This document shows, piece by piece, positions 15,901 through 47,258 of a stretch of 64,000 nt of DNA. The stretch comes from Pempheris klunzingeri. Lineage: Eukaryota; Chordata; Actinopteri; Acropomatiformes; Pempheridae. Location: the NCBI RefSeq assembly GCF_042242105.1, contig NC_092034.1, positions 15,261,644 through 15,325,643 on the forward strand. Reading direction: 5' to 3'. Position 1 is the first letter of the stretch. Each line of letters begins with the position of its first letter. Made by a program: the position numbers and the translations under genes. Under the pieces are notes generated by a model that was not told the origin of the DNA, ran no database searches, and was given only the letters and a program-made list of their open reading frames with translations.

Positions 15901-16612
15901 ATGAGGAACAGTCGCATCCTTCTGCTCTGCATCCTGGGAGCTGCTCTGCTGTCCTCAGTGATGAGCAACAGTAAGATCTGATCGTGTCGACTTACTGTGT
16001 TACAGGTTATTTCTCCAACGGTCTGACGGAACATTCTTTTCCATGCTGTTCCTCAGGTTCTGCAGGAGGTCCTGACGAGTGCTGCTTCAAGTACTACCCA
16101 AGAAGACTGAACAAAAACCTCATCCGCTCATATTACATGACTGATTACCGCTGCTCGAAGACTGGAGCCATGTAAGTGCTGAACACTCACTTTACTTTGC
16201 CCTCAATATGTTTCACACAATGATCTAAAATAATTACAAGTTATGGACATTTAAAAAAAAAAAAAAAAAAATCCATACATTTTTCCATACAAAAATTCAT
16301 AAATGCTGCACACGTCATTTTTACTATTATAGATAATTATATACACATTTTCATTTCCTCATTAGATAAACAGTGAATTGAATAAATCTTGAATTTGTTA
16401 TTCGTTATAAACCCTAATTTTGGTCTCTACTTACTATGTTCTACTTTGTATATATCTTTCTTTAAGATGATAACTAATAAAACACTAAACACTAAAGTTT
16501 TCCCCTCCCTCCTCTCAGTCTGGTTACACAGAAGTCTCGTCACATCTGCGTGGACCCGAGTCTCTCCTGGGTCGAGACCATCATGAGAAGCCTGGACGAA
16601 AAGACCTTTTAA
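15901..16612 (+). CDS. CC chemokine, single domain, 92 aa
   Basis: Three exons, 15901-15970, 16057-16171 and 16519-16612, with intron phases 1 and 2, the standard chemokine gene plan. Residues 1-23 form a signal peptide (MRNSRILLLCILGAALLSS). The mature part has adjacent Cys32-Cys33 (DECCFKYY), Cys56 (YRCSKTGAI) and Cys72 in HICVDPSLSWV, then a short C-terminal helix ending in TF. Length and cysteine spacing are ordinary for secreted CC chemokines, which attract leukocytes through G-protein-coupled receptors. The polyadenylation signal is AATAAA at 16812. I cannot name the orthologue; fish CC chemokines are lineage-expanded. It is the simplest member of the plus-strand chemokine island that continues to 31.7 kb. 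Confidence 0.92.
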
Positions 16613-22643: not shown

Positions 22644-24958
22644 ATGCACTGGACGGCTCAGCTCAGCGTGGCTCTGCTGAACATCTTATGGATCGTCTTC
22701 TTTTTACAACCAGATCCTTTCTCAGGTGAGAGAGGCGTAGTTGACCCTAAATGTGACATGATTTACTGTTTTCTGCTGCACTTTGTTGACATCCTACGAC
22801 TTACTGTAGCAGCAGAAGTCGTGGTGTGGCAGCAGTAGTAGTTCTGGAACACTGGGAACTCATATTATGTGTGTGTGTGTTGATCCGCAGTGTCCGTACG
22901 GAGAAGAAGCTCTGACAGCTCTGATGAAGAGGGGCTGTTTGGAGAGTTTTGTATTCAGCTTCAGTCTGACATGAACTGGACATCACCTGTGCGTTCAGTC
23001 AACGTCAGCTCTGATGGAACCAACAGCACCAACACAACAGCTGGAGGTGAGCACCTCGTCTGGCCTTCACAGCCACTTCATGACTTGATATATAAGACAA
23101 AAAGTGTTTGGCATTCTTTGCTCATTTCCTTTTACCGCTGGCTTAATGGTTTTATTTGTAAGTGGAAAAAAAAAAAGATAATATGTCATAAACCATTCAT
23201 TAAATATGTAGACAGCACTTAAGAATGCTCCTTTGTTCCATAGGAGTTAATCATTAGTTTTAAAGAGTATTACTGTTGATGAGAACAACATGCTGGAAAT
23301 TCTTTAAAATTATTTCTGGCGTATTTTATGCCTTAGATAGATAACTATAGTGAAGAGATGACAGGAAACAAATCAACCCTGAACACATTCAGATTTCTGC
23401 ATTAAAACAGGATCATTTAAAATATTCAAATATTATGCAAACAACTATAGTATTCTGCCACCGTAATAACTGGTAAGTGAATACTGCATATTGGAACAAA
23501 AAAGCTCCAGTAGCCTATTTTTAAACTTTGGCCCTATTTTTTTTTAAATATTTTGGGTGTGTGGGTGCAAAAACTTTTGCAGTCCATTTGCTAGTACTGT
23601 ATTTTATTTAACAGGGAGCACGGAGAGCAACTTCACACTGCACGAAATTCCCTCCATCAAAATCCAGCGCGACTGTCAGTGCAACAAGACTAATATGCTA
23701 CAAAAAGATCTGGACTCTTCCAAGTTGTCACAGATAGAGCTCAGACCTCCCGCACCAGGATGTGAACCCAAGGTCATGTAAGTCAGTGGTTACTGTTGCA
23801 TTCACAGCTGCATTCGGTGGTGATAAAGGTGAAACTAGCAGTAATAGAAGCAGCAGCAGCAGCAGCATCTATATAGCTGGCAGCAGTGTCACATGTTTTA
23901 GTATCAGCTGCATTCTTCATGTCACCACATACACAACAGATGACATGTTTCTGTTATTGTCATGTTTTCTCTCTAGCATGACGTTTCCCAACATGGAGCT
24001 GTGTGTCGATGTGGAAGTCTACTTTTCTGCCATTACTCTACATGTTATGTAAGTTCTGGATCTTTGGGATGTTTAAAAAAAGTCATTGCACGATAATACA
24101 ATCGTGATAATGTAACGTTACTTCGTGACCTTCGGGGAAAAGCCTTCCATTTGCTGCTGTTGTATTGTGTATTGTGTCGTGTTGTCTCCCTGAAGTGTGC
24201 ACATGGTCTCACATGGGTTTTGTGCTCATATCCGTTAGACACCGGGGTGACACAACTCCAGCTAGTCCTCCTGAGCTGGGACTCACCTCCTCGGGGGTCA
24301 CCACAGCCTCTGGGTTGATTTCTAGCAACAGCTCAGCAGCTGCTTTCGTCACGGTGGCCCATCAGACAAAAGCTCCTGTCCAGGAAAGGATCCAGCAGAA
24401 CCAGACAAGAGCTGCTCGTGAGTTTCTGCCTTCAACACGTCTGACATTTCTTTAGTTGTCTGCAGCTGAGCCTAGATAATGTGTTGTCTTTGACTGCTGG
24501 TGGCATTCAATTAACTAAAATGTTATTGTTTAAGGAACTCTGACTAAGTGCTGCATAACAGTCACCAATTCCCCAATTACTGAAGCGATAAAGGGATACA
24601 TCATACAGCGCTCCTCCCCTCCCTGTGTACAGGCTTTGATGTAAGTACAAGCTATAATGTTGTCATGCTAGCAACGATATGCAGACACTTAGTCCTTTCT
24701 CTAAAACACTTGATGATCTATTTATTTGTTAATGAATAAATGTATTACAGGCCAAGATATAATTTTCAGTGTATTTTTGAGCTACTGCAAAGGTTTGGAC
24801 TGACAGGGGCCCTCATCCTGTTTTCTCTCTACAGATTTCACACAGTTAACAACCACCTCTACTGTGTTCATCCACGTGCTCGATGGGCTATCCATACTGT
24901 GAAGGCCTATGAAAAAATGAAGCGGGAGAAAAATAATGAGGAAAAAGATTTATTTTAG
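22644..24958 (+). CDS. Gene A: secreted two-module chemokine (CXC + CC), 293 aa
   Basis: Seven exons: 22644-22725, 22891-23046, 23615-23777, 23977-24048, 24239-24417, 24535-24640, 24835-24958; 882 nt, 294 codons with TAG, all junctions in phase. Residues 1-27 are a hydrophobic signal (WIVFFLQPDPFS). Residues 28-98 are an acidic, Asn-glycosylatable extension with the motif FGEFCI. Module 1 (about 99-158) is CXC: Cys100-Gln-Cys102, Cys129 in PGCEPKVI, Cys143 in ELCVD. A Ser/Thr linker (about 158-217) follows. Module 2 (218-293) is CC: Cys223-Cys224 (TKCCITVT), Cys248, Cys263 in YCVHPRARWAI, then a basic helix KAYEKMKREK. Each module occupies one exon pair with phases 1 and 2, as in single chemokine genes. 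No signal peptide, stop or polyadenylation signal separates the modules. Function is inferred: a secreted ligand with two chemokine heads of different class. Receptor unknown. Confidence 0.85.
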
Positions 24959-25879: not shown

Positions 25880-26166
25880 ATGAGAAACATACGCTGGGTG
25901 GTTCAGATCATTCTGGCTCTCCTGAACGTTGCGTGGGTCGTCTCCTTCTTGCAACCAGATCTTTTCTCAAGGTGAGAGAAGCTGCAGCCGGATGACGACA
26001 CAGATCCAGGCAGACGTTGATGATAATGTGGTGGGCTTTTATTTGCAGCGTCCGTGTGAAGAAGAAGCTCTGATGAGGACGTGGTGTTTGGAGAGTTTTG
26101 CATTCAGCCTCCACCAATCAAAATCATCTCTGATATAACCGACAGCAGCCACACAGCATCTGAAGG
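25880..26166 (+). pseudogene. Broken paralogue: first two exons of the gene A/B family
   Basis: Exon 1 (from ATG 25880 to about 25971) encodes IILALLNVAWVVSFLQPDLF and matches gene A exon 1 (LLNILWIVFFLQPDPFS). It has one extra A before the donor, which shifts the phase. Exon 2 (from about 26049) retains FGEFCIQPPP, but the arginine codon matching CGG in gene A has become TGA in the family phase; the shifted phase also meets TGA within eight codons. It ends at 26166, before GTTAGT. No matching chemokine module exons lie between here and the independent start of gene B at 27156. Reading: a partial tandem duplicate, dead. An untranslated upstream exon role for gene B cannot be excluded. Confidence 0.75.
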
Positions 26167-27155
26167 TTAGTCTTGTTTTTTCAGTTCAGTTGTTGGCCTC
26201 ATTCTGCCACATCCTTGTTGTATGACAGACAGTATACTGAATGCATATTTTGATCTCTTATATGTTGGTCTTTTTGTTGTTTTCTGTTGTAAACCTGTAA
26301 TTTGTCTTCATCTGCTTCTGTCTTTGACATGTATTATCTAACACTAGTAAAGAAATGCAGGGGTGTCCTCAGCTCACATACAATTAAGACTTTGTCCTTA
26401 CAGCAGAGCCATCCTCTGTGTCACACCTGTGTTTCCTGACACTCTTAAGCTGTCCTTTTTTTACTAAAGCGTTAAAAATGCAAAAAAAAAACCTTCCTCG
26501 TTGGACCTTTAAATTTTGCTTCAAACAACTAAACACACATGAAGAAACGATTAAGATAAAAGCAACAAAACAGACAAAAGTGACGTGTACGTACAGTTAA
26601 TAATGTGCACATGCAAACGGATGTGGAATCATTCTACACTCTGTCAAGGGGTTGACAGTTTACGGTCATTTATCACAATAAAATACTGCTGCTGATGCTC
26701 TTTCTCAAGATCATGCTTGTATTTGGAGATCCTACTAGAATAGGCTTACATGGTTTAAAGTTCTAAAAACACAAAATAAAAATAAAATATTGGTTTTTTT
26801 TCTTGGATATCTACACTTTTTAAATAATAATATTTATTAATCCGTTTCAGCTAAGCTGTGAAGACAGATCCATATGTTAGAGCATCTTTCTTCAAGTTTT
26901 GTGGGTTTGGTTTCATTTGAATAAGAAAATGTGCTACAGGATGGTTTACTCCAGTCTGGAGTTTAATGCACATATAGCAGCATCGGCACAACATGATACA
27001 ACCATTAGATGAGAGTATCACTTGGGCAGGTCTTCAGCTTCAGTACTTCCTTCCTTCCTGCTGACTGATCAGATATTCGGTCTCCTGTAAGCTAAAGCTC
27101 TTTAAAGTCATTCTGCCTCACAGAAATCCTGTTGGTGGTATGGTGCACGTCCAAG

Positions 27156-30100
27156 ATGGGCCTCTTCATCATCTTCATGATGACTCTTCTGCTCCAATCA
27201 ACTAAAGAGAGTGAGTTCAGTGGCTGATCTGCTTATACGCTTTTATAGACATTAATACAATTAAAATCCGGTACTTTCAGACTATTTTCACAGTATCACC
27301 ATCAGGAATTGATAATAATAACACACTGTTCTGTTGTTATATTATAGGAATGATGTTTATTTATAGGAATACAATATGATCACAAGGAACATTAAATTGT
27401 TTGATTCCTTTGGGTACAATTGGACATTGATGCATGATTATGTTTTTGGTGGAGAATGCTTATTCTTATTCATTGTGTCTCAGATATAGTTTTGGTATGA
27501 CAAGCTTTGGGTTTGCAGCAGGTTAATGCAGACAGGCCTTAAAGTCAGTGAAGAATGTATGCAATGATGTTTTGGATTGAAGCTATTTTAAAGATTTGAG
27601 TGAAATTGGCTTAATTTGGGATTTCAGAACAAAGTTACCGATCAGAAAATGTTGTAAAGCCCTGCTTATGTTAAGTAAAGAGGACTTCGCCGCCAGCCCA
27701 GTGGATTTAGAAATGATCTTGTTCTCTCCAGATGCAGAGTCGAAGACTCAGACGACATCTGAACCTGACAACTCCGAACGTTTTGGCGAGTTCTGCCTGC
27801 GCATTTTTGATGACTCTCATTGGACCAGCACTGAATCAGCTCCCCACTTGCCAACAAAGTCAGAGGAAGCAACCAAACATGCAGCCCAGCAACCCAAACA
27901 GCCCACCCAACCAACCAGGCAGGCCCCTAAATTACCCAACCAGTCAACCCAGCCAAACAGGGAATCAACCCAACTGCTTGAAAAGCCAACCACAGAGCCA
28001 ACCCTTTCAGACAGTCAGTCGACCCGACCACCCACACAGTCAACTCCTGGTTACTGGGAATCAACCCAACTACCTGAAGATGACCAGTACCCATTGGAGA
28101 TTGTCACCCATGAAGTCAATGAGATAACGATCCCTCCTGTTGCTTTCCACAGTAATTGTGAGACCCTTATTCAACAACCTTTTTTTTTATGACATTATTT
28201 GAACCTACTATGATGCAAAGTTGCCAATTGCACATGAATACTTTTTAAATGATCATTTACATTTATGTTATTTGTGCACTGGACATTATGAAAAGTTGTC
28301 TGTCACCCTCTTTTAAGACGAACAAGGATGTCGCTGCCAAGGAAAAGAGACAAAACCTCCAAGTGAAACCTCCCGAGTTATAGAAGTAACGATGCGGCTC
28401 CCCAGTCAAACATGTAGCTCCACTGAAGTCATGTGAGTGTTCTGAGTGCGTGGTGAGCCTCCAGTTCAGTCTGTCAAAAGAGCAAAATTAAAAGTAATGT
28501 ATTTTGAAATGACCGTAGACAGCAAAAGACTGAATGTTCATTAGTAGATAAAGTGCAGATGACAGAGCTGTATTGCAAAATGTCCCCAACTCTTGTGTCC
28601 CAGTGAGACATTGAACGACGGCAGTGAGGTTTGTGTGACTGCATCCGACTTCTTATCATCCTACGACAAATTTGTGCGGTGAGTTCTATCTGATATTGAA
28701 TAGATAACAGCTCAGTATAGATTTTTCAGTTTATTTTATTTCTAGAGGAGCACTGTGTTGCTTCTTCTTGAATGTAAGTACCGATGTGTCTCTGTGTTTT
28801 TTTTAATGAGCCATTTCCTCACTGATAAGAGGATGTATTAATGATTTTTTTCCCCCTCTGAGTTGACAAGAATATGTTACTCCACCTCCAGTCACTTCTT
28901 TCAGCCTGTGGCTGCGCACCAGTCCAACAGCAAAGAGCTTTTGGACACAGCTCCTACTCCCGTGGACCCAACTGAGTTACCCATAACCACCCCACCGCAT
29001 GAGCTAAATCCACAGCCAACCATAATAGATTACATAGATTATGAATATAATGGTAATTTGCCATTAAAGAGCAGCACATTTTATGCAGCACGATGACAAA
29101 TACCACGCAGCGTTTTATGGATTAAATGTTTGTCTCATGAGGCTTCGCAGACGGTCAACATTGCGGATTCTGCAGCATCAAGACAAACTTGGACATAGTT
29201 GACCCAAAGGCTGTACAATCCCTGAATGTGATGATGCAGCCATCTCCCTGTCCTGCCCATGTCTAGTAAGGCTCCCACCATTAATTTTCACAAAATAACT
29301 GTTTAAAAATGTAAATAGATCCATCTTTACATTTTTTAATTCTTAAACAAGAATTAGTGGAATTCAGGATTTACTGTAAATAGACGAAAAGATGGATGAA
29401 GACTCTCATTTGGTCTTAATTATTGAAATGTTCAGCTCAAATTATAATCGTGGCTACAGTTCAGTCAGATATGTCAATAGCTGGTTGCTAGATGTGTGTA
29501 AAATGAAAACTCACACACATCCTCCTTAACTTTGTCTGTATAACTGTGGTGTCATCGCATGAAGAAAACTATATGCGTTTTTTGTCTCCCCACTGGCTCA
29601 CAGTGTCAGCCTGAAAGATGCTGAGGATTTGTGTTTGGACGAATTCTTTCCAGCGGACGTGTCGATGGTGGAGAAACTGGAAATCCCCCCTCCCCATGAA
29701 GGTAATTTTGAGTCCAACAGTCCACTACTAGTCAGCATACTGACCAGGACCTGGAAAAGCAGTGCATTCACATGTTAAACAGAGCAGGAAGTATCACATT
29801 TTGCCTTGAAAAATGATTACAACAATTAGTTTAATTACCAAAATTGCTTTTTTCTTCTTAATCGAATCAACTGGATCAATCAATGAACTACTTGTTACAC
29901 CTCTCGATAGCATCTGGATTGTGAAAAATTGTCTTTAATCTCTTGCAAGTCATCGATGGATGTCGCTGCCGTGAGAGAGAGCAGAAACTGCCAGATGAAA
30001 CCTCCCCAGTCATAAGCACAAGGATTTGGCCCCCCAGTGAAACATGTAACTCAACTGAATTCATGTAAGTGCTATTTTAGTGTGCGTGAAAGAGAATGAG

Positions 30101-31664
30101 ATCATTCTAATCCAGCGTCATTCTGTTTATAGTGACACTGAAATTTAAAACACTGAATGTAGTTACAGATATTTAGACTTTATTTTCCCCCCCAGTGAGA
30201 CACTGACGGATGGCAGGGAGGTGTGTGTGACTGCATCCACCATCCTAGTGTACCTTCTAGCGGCTCCTATGTAAGTCAGTACTATCTGTCACACAGTTAA
30301 GATTGTCCTCCTTTATTTTTGTACATGCAAAACAAATGTAAATGTGAATTCAAGCTAACATCAAAAAAGGCCGGCTCGTTCCACAGTCACTCTCGATGAC
30401 TCATTTAATTCAGCTCACTTAGTTCAACTTTCAGATTTGGGGTGATTCACTTGAATTATGGAAAAAGCAGATTAACCTTTGTCTGTGCTATTTAGCCGTG
30501 CAAATGTTTGTGGTTTCATTTGGCCAGGATTTAAAGGGGCACTCCACTAATCTTACAAATTATACCTCATATGAGGAACTTTGACCTGGTAATGAAACAG
30601 TCTCTATTTATTACTGATGCCTGTATATGGACTACATGGGCAAACAAGATCACTGGGGATGTTGATAACTAGAATATGAATATTACTTATACAGTGCTTG
30701 TACCAAGTATAGCTTATAAAGCATATTGTGTATTTGGTCCCTTTGACTGCACAGCACTTCAGTATGGGACGGGTGATCCAAACCCCACGCTTCCTTTTCC
30801 GACTTGTATTTCTATTTTTCTGGGGTGTTCAAATGCTTCAAATGTCCATAACTGATGGACACAAAGTTATTATGGTATAAAGTTACTATGGAGAACCTTT
30901 AGAATCCATATTTGTCAGCTGACCGTGGCCATTTCCTTGCTGATACCATGGGGGATGTTTTGTAAATGTAACATCAGTGATCATTTCCTGTGAGTTGATA
31001 AGGCTGTGTTCCTCACCCTTCCCCCAGCCAAAGGTCTGCTTTTTCAGTTCTGGCACCTGAAGTGAATACACTGCCTGTGCTAACGCTACCAGGTAACGGG
31101 TACCCTGTTGGTGAGAAGGAAGAGGCAGGATTCCTGCCAAAACATGAAATTGTGGAAGCTTTCGGTGAGTTTTACAGTGACATGGATGCAATAGCATCAC
31201 ATATAATTAAAAAGTTTTACCTTGGACGCATCAAGTTACTGTTTAAAGGTTTATCTTGGATGGTTTCACAGAGGAGCTCCTACATGCCATGTGCAAAAGA
31301 TGCAGAACTGTTGAAAACTTGAGCAACGTTGACCCAAACAATGTGCAATCCCTGGGGATTCATGTGCAATCATTTGGCTGTCCTGCCTCCATTCAGTAAG
31401 TTGCATGTTACTCTTCTAGTCTTTCACACGTATACGCATAACTTGCCACAGAATCAATCCCATTCGAGAGCCTCCTATAGATAAGCAATGAAGTACAATG
31501 GTGGGCATTTACACATATACGAAATCGGCCTTACATACTATATTTATAAGATGTGTCTTTTGTCTCACAGCGTCTGGCTGAAAAATGGAGAAGACTTCTG
31601 TGTGAGCACGCCAGACATGGAGCTCAGGACTCTGGTGAAGAAGCTGGAAAGTCAAGGCCACTAA
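27156..31664 (+). CDS. Gene B: secreted four-module tandem chemokine, 527 aa
   Basis: Twelve exons: 27156-27210, 27732-28151 (alternative donor 28157), 28318-28432, 28604-28678, 28892-29052, 29151-29265, 29604-29701, 29950-30064, 30196-30270, 31028-31164, 31272-31395, 31571-31664; 1584 nt, 528 codons with TAA, in phase at every junction. Signal peptide about residues 1-18 (MGLFIIFMMTLLLQS). Exon 2 gives FGEFCLRIF, then a mucin-like Gln/Pro/Thr stalk. Modules: M1 CXC, Cys163/165/191/207; M2 CX2C, Cys280/283/309/324; M3 CXC, Cys351/353/379/395; M4 CX2C, Cys463/466/492/507. M1 and M3 share GCRC and DG-EVCVTAS; M2 and M4 share VDP--VQSL and LK--ED-C----KLE. Pro-rich linkers follow M1, M2 (short) and M3. 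Each module is a phase-1/phase-2 exon pair. A single-gene reading is supported by the absence of internal signal peptides, stops and polyadenylation signals. The splice model is a prediction; function unknown. Confidence 0.85.
27860..28090 (+). repeat. Coding low-complexity stalk in gene B exon 2
   Basis: Imperfect CCAACC/CAACCC-type units encode PTQPTRQAP, NQSTQPNRESTQLLEKPT and YWESTQLPED. ESTQL occurs twice. The composition is Pro/Thr/Gln/Ser, expected to be extended and O-glycosylated. In CX3CL1 and CXCL16 a comparable stalk follows the chemokine head; here it precedes it. Confidence 0.75.
30530..30900. repeat. Probable dispersed repeat inside the gene B intron
   Basis: The segment opens AAAGGGGCACTCCACTAATC and shares its start with another copy near 15145 in this window. 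It fills most of the long intron between gene B exons 9 and 10. The right end is uncertain and no family is assigned. Confidence 0.35.
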
Positions 31665-31809: not shown

Positions 31810-31815
31810 ATTAAA
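31810..31815 (+). terminator. Polyadenylation signal ATTAAA (gene B)
   Basis: Common variant hexamer 146 bp after the gene B stop codon, with T-rich sequence downstream. Confidence 0.6.
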
Positions 31816-33209
31816 CTACATAAATATGTTCCCTTTTTCATTATTACGAAGACGGGAAAAGTCATGACGGCCATCTTCCTTTACTGGTGGTAGATTCATG
31901 TATTTTTGAATTTCTTGTTTTCAGATATTTTCTCATCTCTGTACCTCTTTGAATATAATTAAATAGCACTCACCCATCAGTTCATGAATATTCTTGAAGT
32001 GGAATCTCAGCACCATGTTAGTTACTGTTATTTGGAGTCAAATATACAGTAGAAGGTGGAAAATATCACCTCAAGACTCGAGACAAAGCCTTAAGACGTA
32101 GTGAAAACTGTGAGTTTTCGTCAAAAGGCGTTGCTGTGGCGACGCAGCGAATTTCGATCGAAAATGTTCCTTCGCTGTGAGCATTAAAAGTGCAGTAACT
32201 CCACAATACAAGGTCCTATCTTCACCACATTTATTCTGCTTGATGACTGTCCGGCTATGAAGACAAGCACATAGTGGCGGGAGGAAGTGCATGTTTTATT
32301 CTCAGACGTCTCTCTCTCTCAGCAGGTTCACCACAGCCACCTCAAATTTGGTTTTTCAATCTGTTCCAAACTTGTCATGATGAATAAGACTCCCGGCCTG
32401 AAGACATCTACATGCCAATTAGGGACCACAGTCATTGCAGCAACAGCACAAATGAAACAGGTCATATAGACTATGAAAACAGCAAGAATGTAAAAATCAA
32501 CAAATAAAAAATAGCAAGTTTTACATAAATGCTTGGGGGAGTGATCACAATCACATAACAGAGAGCAGGGCAGCATGGTGGTGCTGTGGTCAGCACTGTT
32601 GCCCCACAGCTAGAAAGGTCCCTGGTTTGAACCTGGAATCTTTCTGTGTGGAGTTTTGCTTGCTAGCGTGAGTTCTCTCCGGGTACTCCGGCTTCCTCCC
32701 ACAATCCAAAAGACATGCAAGCTGGGCTAATTGGTAACTCTAAATTGCCCGTAGGTGTGAGTGTGAGAGTGAGTGTCTGTCTGTCTCTGTATGTGGCCCT
32801 GTGAATGGCTGGCGACCACTTCAGGCTGTACCCCGCCTCTTGCCCGAAGTCAGCTGGGACTGGCTCCAGCTCCCCCACGAATGAAAGAATGAAAAGTTGC
32901 ACATACAGATAATTGACCACGTTTACAGTGTTAACTGTAATCCCTAAATTATGATTGTATAAGCTTTTAACAATGATTTCAACATGATAGTGTTTATAAT
33001 AACGCCAGGATCAGATGACAGACATGTGGAACAGTATTTGATCCAGACTATGGCTTTCTACGCTTCACAGAGCTCATCTTTCGGTTACCTACAGTGACAT
33101 ATTACACAGTATGTGATGCCCTTGTACCTTTTTCTGGGCTACTATTAGTCTCTTTGCATCCTAAAATGTTAATTCAGTCATCTGTTCAGTAATTTATGAA
33201 ATTGTCCAG
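31816..33209. other. Intergenic DNA between gene B and ccdc96
   Basis: No coding exon recognised. It contains the SINE-like element at 32566-32893. The ccdc96 3'UTR (minus strand) must occupy part of the right side, but no clear AATAAA on that strand was found close to the stop. Confidence 0.5.
32566..32893. mobile_element. tRNA-like SINE / dispersed fish element
   Basis: The stretch starts GGGCAGCATGGTGGTGCTGT, has a polymerase III B-box-like GGTTTGAACC, and continues GGGTACTCCGGCTTCCTCCC, AATTGCCCGTAGGTGTGA and GTACCCCGCCTCTTGCCC. It ends near CTCCAGCTCCCCCACGAATG. This is one of the most frequent interspersed sequences of teleost genomes, and this copy is nearly full length. A fragment of the same family lies at 51085-51190. 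Confidence 0.75.
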
Positions 33210-45720: not shown

Positions 45721-45902
45721 AGTTTGTTTGAGTTGCAGTTAAAGGTGAACGCTGCACATGTGACCAAGGACAGTTTTTTAAAACCTTGTCAAACAAAAGG
45801 TTACTCATCCCACGGCCATGCAACTCAAACATTTCTGGAGTTCAGTGATCTAATGCAATCCTGGTGGTTAATGTGAAACTTAAGATTTTCCAGTAACAGT
45901 TA

Positions 45903-47258
45903 TTAGCACTCACCTCCAACATCATGAAGTGCTTTGAGCGGTTAGTCAAAGGATTCATCACCTCCTCCCTCCCTGGCTCACTGGACCCGCTTCAGTTTGC
46001 CTACAGGCCAAATAGGTCGACTGAAGACGCGATCCCCCTCACCCTCCACACTGCCCTCTCCCACCTGGAGCAGAGGGACACATATGTGAGGATGCTGTTC
46101 ATCGACTATAGTTCAGCATTCAACACCATTGTGCCCTCGAAGCTCGTCATCAAACTCAGTGATCTCGGTCTCAACACCACCCTCTGTGACTGGATCCTGA
46201 ACTTCCTGACAGGCAGACCCCAGGCTGTGCGGATCGGCAGCACCACATCCTCCACCCTGACTCTCAACACCGGCGCCCCCCAGGGCTGTGTGCTCAGCCC
46301 TCTCCTGTACTCCCTGTTCACACATGACTGTGTGGCCACCCACAGCTCCAACACCATCATCAAATTTGCTGACAACACGACCGTCATAGGCCTGATCACT
46401 GGCAACAATGAGACAGAGAGGAGGTCAGAGCCCTGACATCTTGGTGCCAGGACAACAACCTCCATCTCAACGTCAGCAAAACAAAGGAGCTGATCGTGGA
46501 CTACAGGAAGAGACAGAGAGAGGAACACGCCCCCCTCTTCATCAATGGGACTACAGTGGAGAGAGTCAGCAGCTTCAGGTTCCTCGGGGTTCACATCAGC
46601 GAGGACTTGACCTGGTCTCACCACACTGACTTCATCACCAAGTCAGCGAGACAGCGGCTCTTCTTCCTCCGCAGGCTGCGGAGGCTCAACATGGGCTCCA
46701 GGATACTCTGCAGCTTCTACAGGTGCAGCATTGAGAGCATCCTGACTGGCTGCATCACCTCCTGCTACGGCAGTTGCACCGCCCTCAACTGTAAGGCTCT
46801 ACAGAGGGTGGTGAAGACTGCACTGCACATCACCAGGTCGATGCTGCCATCCATGGAGGACCTCTACACCCAGCGGTGTGGGAAGAAGGCCACCAGTATC
46901 ATCAAGGACTCTTATCACCCCAGCCACAAACTGTTCTGCCTGCTGCCGTCTGGCCGTCAGTACCGCAGCATCCGAGCCCGCAGCAGCAGGCTCAGGGACA
47001 GTTTCATCCCCCAGGCCATAAGACTCTTAAGCTGCACATAGTCTGCAAACAATTTGCACTGCCCTATTTTGCACCTCTTAGCTGTACATTTTATTTTATT
47101 AGTTGTATATACCTTATTTTTTACTTATATTTATATTCCTCACGTACAGCAGTGTTACTGGGACCAGAGCCATAAGAATTTCACTGCCAGTGATTGCTTC
47201 ATGTAACTGCTGAGCATGTGACAATAAAGTCTTTGAATCTTGAATCTTGAATCTAGAA
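45903..47258 (+). mobile_element. 5'-truncated LINE (L2/CR1/Rex-type non-LTR retrotransposon)
   Basis: Only the C-terminal half of the reverse transcriptase is present: [61 protein letters not shown], then FADN where active elements have FADD. A second frame continues LHLNVSKTKELIVDYRKRQR, FRFLGVHISEDLTW and LHITRSMLPS. The first frame closes at 46436 (ETERRSEP), where relatives keep reading, so at least one frameshift plus the Asp-to-Asn change mark a dead copy. The 3' end is AATAAAGTC followed by TTGAATC repeats, the tail style of this LINE group. Inserted about 350 bp upstream of grpel1. Family assignment is from recall of fish sequences. Confidence 0.85.

Follow-up and report, generated by a model that had tools for sequence, protein, structure and literature searches.

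Does a chemokine gene have to encode a single chemokine head, or can several heads be carried in series by one gene and one chain? This question is raised by a locus of Pempheris klunzingeri, here called gene B (27156-31664, + strand), within a window of 64,000 nucleotides (the whole stretch of DNA analysed; C23:15261644-15325643 of a 646 Mb genome), for which a preliminary description had proposed one gene encoding four chemokine-like modules. To our knowledge, known chemokines carry a single head. Our preferred reading, to which we assign a probability of about 0.68, is that gene B is one functional gene encoding one secreted protein of ~510 residues, with an acidic stalk and four heads, that it originated from a duplicated block and, as a part to which we give clearly lower odds when it is taken alone, that its function is decoy-like. 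This reading is built on the sequence, the splice phases, the cysteines, the homology of the modules and the duplication, from which we infer a transcript, a protein, its secretion and its function.

Structure of gene B

Gene B comprises 12 exons, all on the + strand, with GT-AG boundaries at 11 of 11 introns and a single open frame of 529 amino acids followed by a stop; the exon phases run, in order, 0-1, 1-1, 1-2, 2-2, 2-1, 1-2, 2-1, 1-2, 2-2, 2-1, 1-2 and 2-0. Exon 1 (27156..27210) encodes a predicted hydrophobic leader, MGLFIIFMMTLLLQSTKE, and exon 2 (27732..28157) an FGEFC motif and an acidic stalk rich in serine, threonine and proline (142 residues, S+T+P = 37%). Module 1 is divided between exon 3 (28318..28432) and exon 4 (28604..28678) and is followed by a linker in exon 5 (28892..29052), while module 2 is divided between exon 6 (29151..29265) and exon 7 (29604..29701), the latter being spliced onward. 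The same order recurs in module 3 (exon 8, 29950..30064, and exon 9, 30196..30270), a second linker (exon 10, 31028..31164) and module 4 (exon 11, 31272..31395, and exon 12, 31571..31664, which includes the stop). The donors of gene B rank at or above the 93rd percentile among GTs of 20-33 kb. There is no N within the window and hence no assembly gap, an ATTAAA lies at 31810, downstream of the stop, and no RNA family reached its gathering score across 20-34 kb.

The preliminary description had joined the same 12 exons in phase into 527 codons; the in-phase joining stands, and the length becomes 529 residues, as the earlier count resulted from the use of an alternative in-phase exon-2 donor after 28151, which scores -1.2 under a simple donor matrix versus 1.2 for that after 28157. 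Its further statements that the frame is free of stops across all 12 exons, that the translation has a single signal peptide (one hydrophobic leader) and that the exons follow the chemokine plan, with a leader exon in phase 1 and modules split in phase 2, were borne out.

Chemokine identity of the four modules

The four complete four-cysteine modules that had been described are present in gene B with all 16 cysteines (C165/167/193/209, C282/285/311/326, C353/355/381/397 and C465/468/494/509). The spacing is that of chemokines in 4/4 modules, Cys2 and Cys3 lying 26 residues apart in each and Cys3 and Cys4 lying 15 or 16 apart. The modules are arranged as A-B-A'-B', modules 1 and 3 having C-x-C and modules 2 and 4 an odd C-x-x-C (CX2C) spacing. 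One head per chain, a customary rather than a defining trait of the family, is therefore not what is found in this open frame, which holds four.

The whole gene B protein matched Pfam IL8 (PF00048) with 44.1 bits against a cut-off of 21.3. Taken singly, modules 1 and 3 exceeded this cut-off (25.6 and 25.2 bits), module 4 fell below it (14.2 bits) and module 2 gave no Pfam IL8 match. Module 1 retrieved 27 PDB sequences to E 1, CXC chemokines by name (best 3.5e-4). A joint profile of modules 2 and 4 retrieved 34 to E 1, again CXC chemokines, the best being a PF4 chimera (4.5e-6), and a joint profile of modules 1 and 3 with the CXC-spaced module of a neighbouring gene (gene A, described below) retrieved 26 to E 0.01 (best 2.8e-7). 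Because of these Pfam, PDB and joint-profile matches, all four are, as judged from sequence, chemokine modules; the identity of module 2 is suggested by its likeness to module 4 and by the profile that the two share.

A scan for exons of the first-module type over the 64 kb on both strands gave 10 rows, each of them on the + strand, corresponding to just 7 distinct exons, which argues that an array of four modules is beyond chance. These were the four of gene B, the CC exon of gene A, an exon at 16057 of a one-module CC gene and a chance-like exon at 32562; the CXC exon of gene A was missed, being longer than the length limit of the scan.

Duplication of a two-head block

Modules 1 and 3 share 62% identity over 53 residues, and modules 2 and 4 share 41% over 61 residues; the unit that has been doubled is therefore a two-head block. 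Between the blocks, four of five exon pairs align (DNA identity 74%, 76%, 74% and 64%), three with z of 16-32 (maximum 31.9) and the fourth with z of 6.3. Four of the five intron pairs align no better than chance (z -1.4 to 2.0), and introns 5/10 have a z of 6.5. The cysteines are kept between the blocks at 8/8 compared positions, versus 46/92 of the other aligned positions. Under simulated neutral change (2000 runs), the open frame was kept in 0.2% of runs at 0.1 changes per site and in none at 0.2.

We propose that gene B arose in a small chemokine cluster, where a two-head gene would have formed first, a form that gene A keeps (CXC-spaced plus CC), and that exons 3-7, the two-head block, would then have been duplicated in the lineage leading to gene B. 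The modules are cassettes of phase 1-1; exon 7 would have acquired a donor in the position that the stop occupies in exon 12, and the second block would have been left without a leader. When the whole gene B protein was searched against its own genome, it gave 13 matches, of which 12 were its own exons at this locus and the other, on C14, looks like chance (E 0.52, 4 stops). Among matches to E 10 no second copy of either gene B or gene A was found in the genome. Retrocopies were sought as a sign of a spliced transcript, and there was none among the 16 best candidates scored.

The proposal of a single four-module chemokine gene is thus well sustained by the phases, the cysteines, the exon-restricted conservation, the leader scan (below) and gene A. 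It did not state that the modules are non-equivalent, and it omitted both the alternation of CXC with CX2C as one duplicated pair and the bearing of the neighbouring CXC+CC gene A.

One gene or several

If the modules belonged to separate genes, each downstream module might be expected to have a leader exon of its own. Signal exons were defined as ATG exons with a hydrophobic start (threshold 1.8) and an in-phase donor, no more than 1.5 kb upstream of a module. The scan recovered the leaders of gene A and of gene B (exon 1), which served as positive controls, and, over the same 1.5-kb reach, found an in-phase signal exon for 0/3 of the downstream gene B modules (2, 3 and 4). A scan of the same type with nearly equal settings found a leader at 8/8 other chemokine loci of this genome (six plus two matches from two genome searches, out of 44 exon-level matches listed); two of these eight loci, on C21, were read through and had one module each. 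An earlier leader scan of narrower stretches, superseded by the 1.5-kb scan, had given no match for five gene B targets and one gene A target. The absence of internal signal peptides, as previously described, accordingly holds in the scan, and we reject separate genes with internal leaders on the basis of the scan and these controls. The outcome is not entirely clean, as the CC module of gene A had one marginal match (24009-24048, hydrophobicity 1.81), which falls within exon 4 of that gene in another frame. A leader-like open reading frame at 29813, in intron 7 of gene B, was also considered and had no match in the signal-exon scans.

An arrangement that would place the boundary at the block border is that of two adjoining two-head genes, with one transcript finishing after modules 1-2 and a second, equipped with a separate promoter and leader, carrying modules 3-4. 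It gains some appeal from the repeat unit, which is a two-head block, from gene A, which is such a block alone, and from exon 7, which if left unspliced reads 25 residues into intron 7 before a stop. However, module 3 has neither an in-phase signal exon within 1.5 kb nor a copy of exon 2 before it, a good donor at exon 7 faces a good acceptor of the right phase at exon 8, and intron 7 is without AATAAA or ATTAAA, as are introns 2, 4, 6, 8, 9 and 11. We therefore regard two genes as improbable. Given the lack of internal leader exons, the splice phases and the distribution of these hexamers, a single 12-exon transcript is the best reading of the sequence, with shorter forms being possible.

Several observations weigh against the reading of gene B as one functional four-head gene. 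The signal-exon scan has a random background, with matches at 76 of 400 positions. AATAAA or ATTAAA hexamers occur in introns 1, 3, 5 and 10, contrary to the earlier statement that the gene lacks internal polyadenylation signals. Retention of intron 4 or intron 9 would stop the frame directly after module 1 or module 3, and the phase 1-1 cassettes permit whole blocks to be skipped in frame. The linker exons 5 and 10 cannot be aligned (z -1.0), and neither gave a tblastn match to the region of the other. Nonsynonymous (dN) and synonymous (dS) divergence are about equal both between modules 1 and 3 (dN 0.41, dS 0.43) and between modules 2 and 4 (dN 0.68, dS 0.66), and most residues have therefore changed freely or by diversifying selection. 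Finally, the evidence for gene B comes from DNA, and its transcript and protein are predictions.

Part of this list would fit alternative splicing into one-, two- and four-head proteins of which the four-head form is minor. As the blocks begin and end in phase 1, skipping of exons 3-5, 6-7, 3-7 or 8-10 would keep the frame, a retained intron 4 or 9 would give an immediate stop and the intron 5 hexamers could end a short form. Yet the phases merely permit such forms, there is no sign of preferred skipping, and zero stops over all modules suggest that all are used; we consider a predominance of shorter proteins unlikely. The similarity of dN and dS, together with a decayed partial copy adjoining the gene, could instead indicate that gene B is itself decaying or weakly constrained and yields no important protein. 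Chemokines commonly evolve fast at the amino-acid level, which counts against this explanation, and the gene has no stop, 11 intact introns and 16 conserved module cysteines, a state that is improbable under neutral change of the observed size. Decay consequently has low odds in our assessment.

Gene A and the surrounding cluster

Gene A (22644..24958, + strand) has 7 exons (22644-22725, 22891-23046, 23615-23777, 23977-24048, 24239-24417, 24535-24640 and 24835-24958) and encodes 293 amino acids comprising a leader, a stalk with FGEFC, a CXC-spaced module, a linker with RAAR and a CC module. Arithmetic on the exon lengths gives it the phase order of gene B exons 1-7, except for the stop that closes its last exon. 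This sister gene, with two modules on the same exon plan, strengthens the reading of gene B as one gene. The first module of gene A, with CQC and spacings of 27 and 14, shares 20% identity with module 1 and 27% with module 3 of gene B and gave no IL8 match when searched alone; its cysteines, the phases of its exons and its position lead us to call it a putative chemokine module. The CC module matched IL8 with 45 bits and, in PDB, an XCL1 ancestor (1e-5) and MIP-3 alpha (5.3e-5), which we take to be CCL20. The fusion of CXC and CC modules in gene A is as unexpected as the four heads of gene B.

The nearest relatives of the gene A CC module in the same genome are two CC genes on C21, at ~50% identity over one exon; these adjoin one another and have a long tail rich in Ser/Thr/Pro (L029 6177-7070 and L030 4184-5030, approximate). 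Between genes A and B lies a partial and decayed duplicate of exons 1-2 of gene A (25883..26170, + strand; 73-78% DNA identity), with a TGA in the FGEFC frame and no module found 3' of it. Upstream of gene A, a one-module CC chemokine gene (15901..16612, + strand) encodes 92 amino acids in 3 exons (15901-15970, 16057-16171 and 16519-16612) on the ordinary plan, with a leader in phase 1 and a module split in phase 2. This chemokine cluster thus has genes with one, two and four heads standing side by side.

The FGEFC motif occurs at approximately 22938-22990 in gene A, 26087-26110 in the decayed copy and 27783-27830 in gene B, its spare cysteine being kept in all three. This cysteine is unpaired, and the cysteine totals are odd, with 9 in gene A and 17 in gene B. 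The flanking genes are presumably tbc1d14 and ccdc96, names given by resemblance, and on the right flank tada2b and grpel1 were confirmed by Pfam. A reverse transcriptase domain (RVT_1, 74 bits) at 45897-46436 marks a piece of a retroelement.

Predicted protein properties and function

Assuming that the leader is cut after residue 17, the mature gene B chain has a net charge of -38 and an isoelectric point of 4.7. Modules 1-4 have charges of -3, -7, -4 and -1, and the gene A CC module one of +5. Chemokines activate receptors via a free N-terminus, and basic patches hold them on heparan sulphate. The acidic charge of every gene B module speaks against a classical heparan-sulphate gradient. With its heads on a shared chain, the protein would dock on several receptor N-termini at once via the folded cores, and the inner heads would have no free N-terminus with which to drive receptor activation.

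Those N-termini would be freed if the protein were a precursor cleaved after secretion to release individual chemokines. RxxR is the minimal furin motif, and the RAAR directly before the gene A CC module (residues 215-218) fits it; a cut there would leave a short free N-terminus. Gene B, by comparison, encodes no RxxR site and just two dibasic pairs (KR 466 and KK 522), both within module 4. A cut precursor is accordingly more plausible in the case of gene A; for gene B we think it a poor candidate. The inner heads without a free N-terminus, the lack of RxxR and the acidity of all heads lead us to suggest, with considerable reserve, that the gene B protein may be a soluble multivalent decoy, antagonist or receptor cross-linker rather than a chemoattractant bound to heparan sulphate. 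The cross-linking, gradient and decoy roles put forward in the preliminary description are best treated as candidate functions.

Novelty and implications

No multi-module chemokine was found among the open-access papers listed; subscription journals and predicted-protein databases lay outside this scope, and automatic gene models of gene B may therefore exist already. The portions of three papers on fish chemokines that were covered (PMC3568907, PMC2416438 and PMC4690017) do not mention a multi-head gene.

It is conceivable, and we put it forward tentatively, that some teleosts have a family of natural multi-head chemokines, with gene A as a genetically fixed CXC-CC hetero-dimer and gene B as a doubled block. 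Through the FGEFC cysteine two chains may be joined, giving twice the number of heads, and such ligands could join different chemokine receptors or block several of them simultaneously. Chemokine pairing, including that of CXC with CC, is non-covalent, and chemokines have been studied as one-domain proteins. If our proposal is right, a pairing fixed in the chain would make the roles of chemokine hetero-dimers and of multivalency directly testable in a living animal. The locus would also illustrate how, in a mixed cluster, phase 1-1 cassettes can turn a one-domain family into a multi-domain one, and the CX2C spacing of modules 2 and 4 would join those already known, C, CC, CXC, CX3C and CX.

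Comparison with known chemokines

The closest counterparts are the CXC chemokines (CXCL1/2/3/4/7/8 type, PF00048), which modules 1 and 3 resemble in the CXC four-cysteine core and the phase-2 split and which formed the first PDB group matched by both joint profiles. Gene B differs from them in its four heads in series, its stalk and linkers, the CX2C spacing of modules 2 and 4 and the acidity of all its modules. A Ser/Thr-rich stalk is common to gene B and to CX3CL1/CXCL16, but in the latter it comes after one head and runs on into a membrane segment, whereas in gene B it precedes four heads. Reading of the translation revealed no membrane segment at the gene B C-terminus, where the chain ends in ...LVKKLESQGH after module 4. 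CC chemokines (CCL20, XCL1-like) match the second module of gene A, which, unlike them, lacks a separate leader and shares its frame with the CXC-spaced module that precedes it.

Among fish chemokines, three from zebrafish, CXCL-chr24a/b/d, are described in the part of PMC2416438 covered here as having a potential membrane segment and mucin-like domains. Departures in cysteine spacing are likewise documented, within the covered parts of PMC2416438 and PMC4690017, for the zebrafish CX subfamily. That subfamily lacks one of the first two cysteines, whereas gene B keeps both in 4/4 modules, and in modules 2 and 4 the two are separated by two residues.

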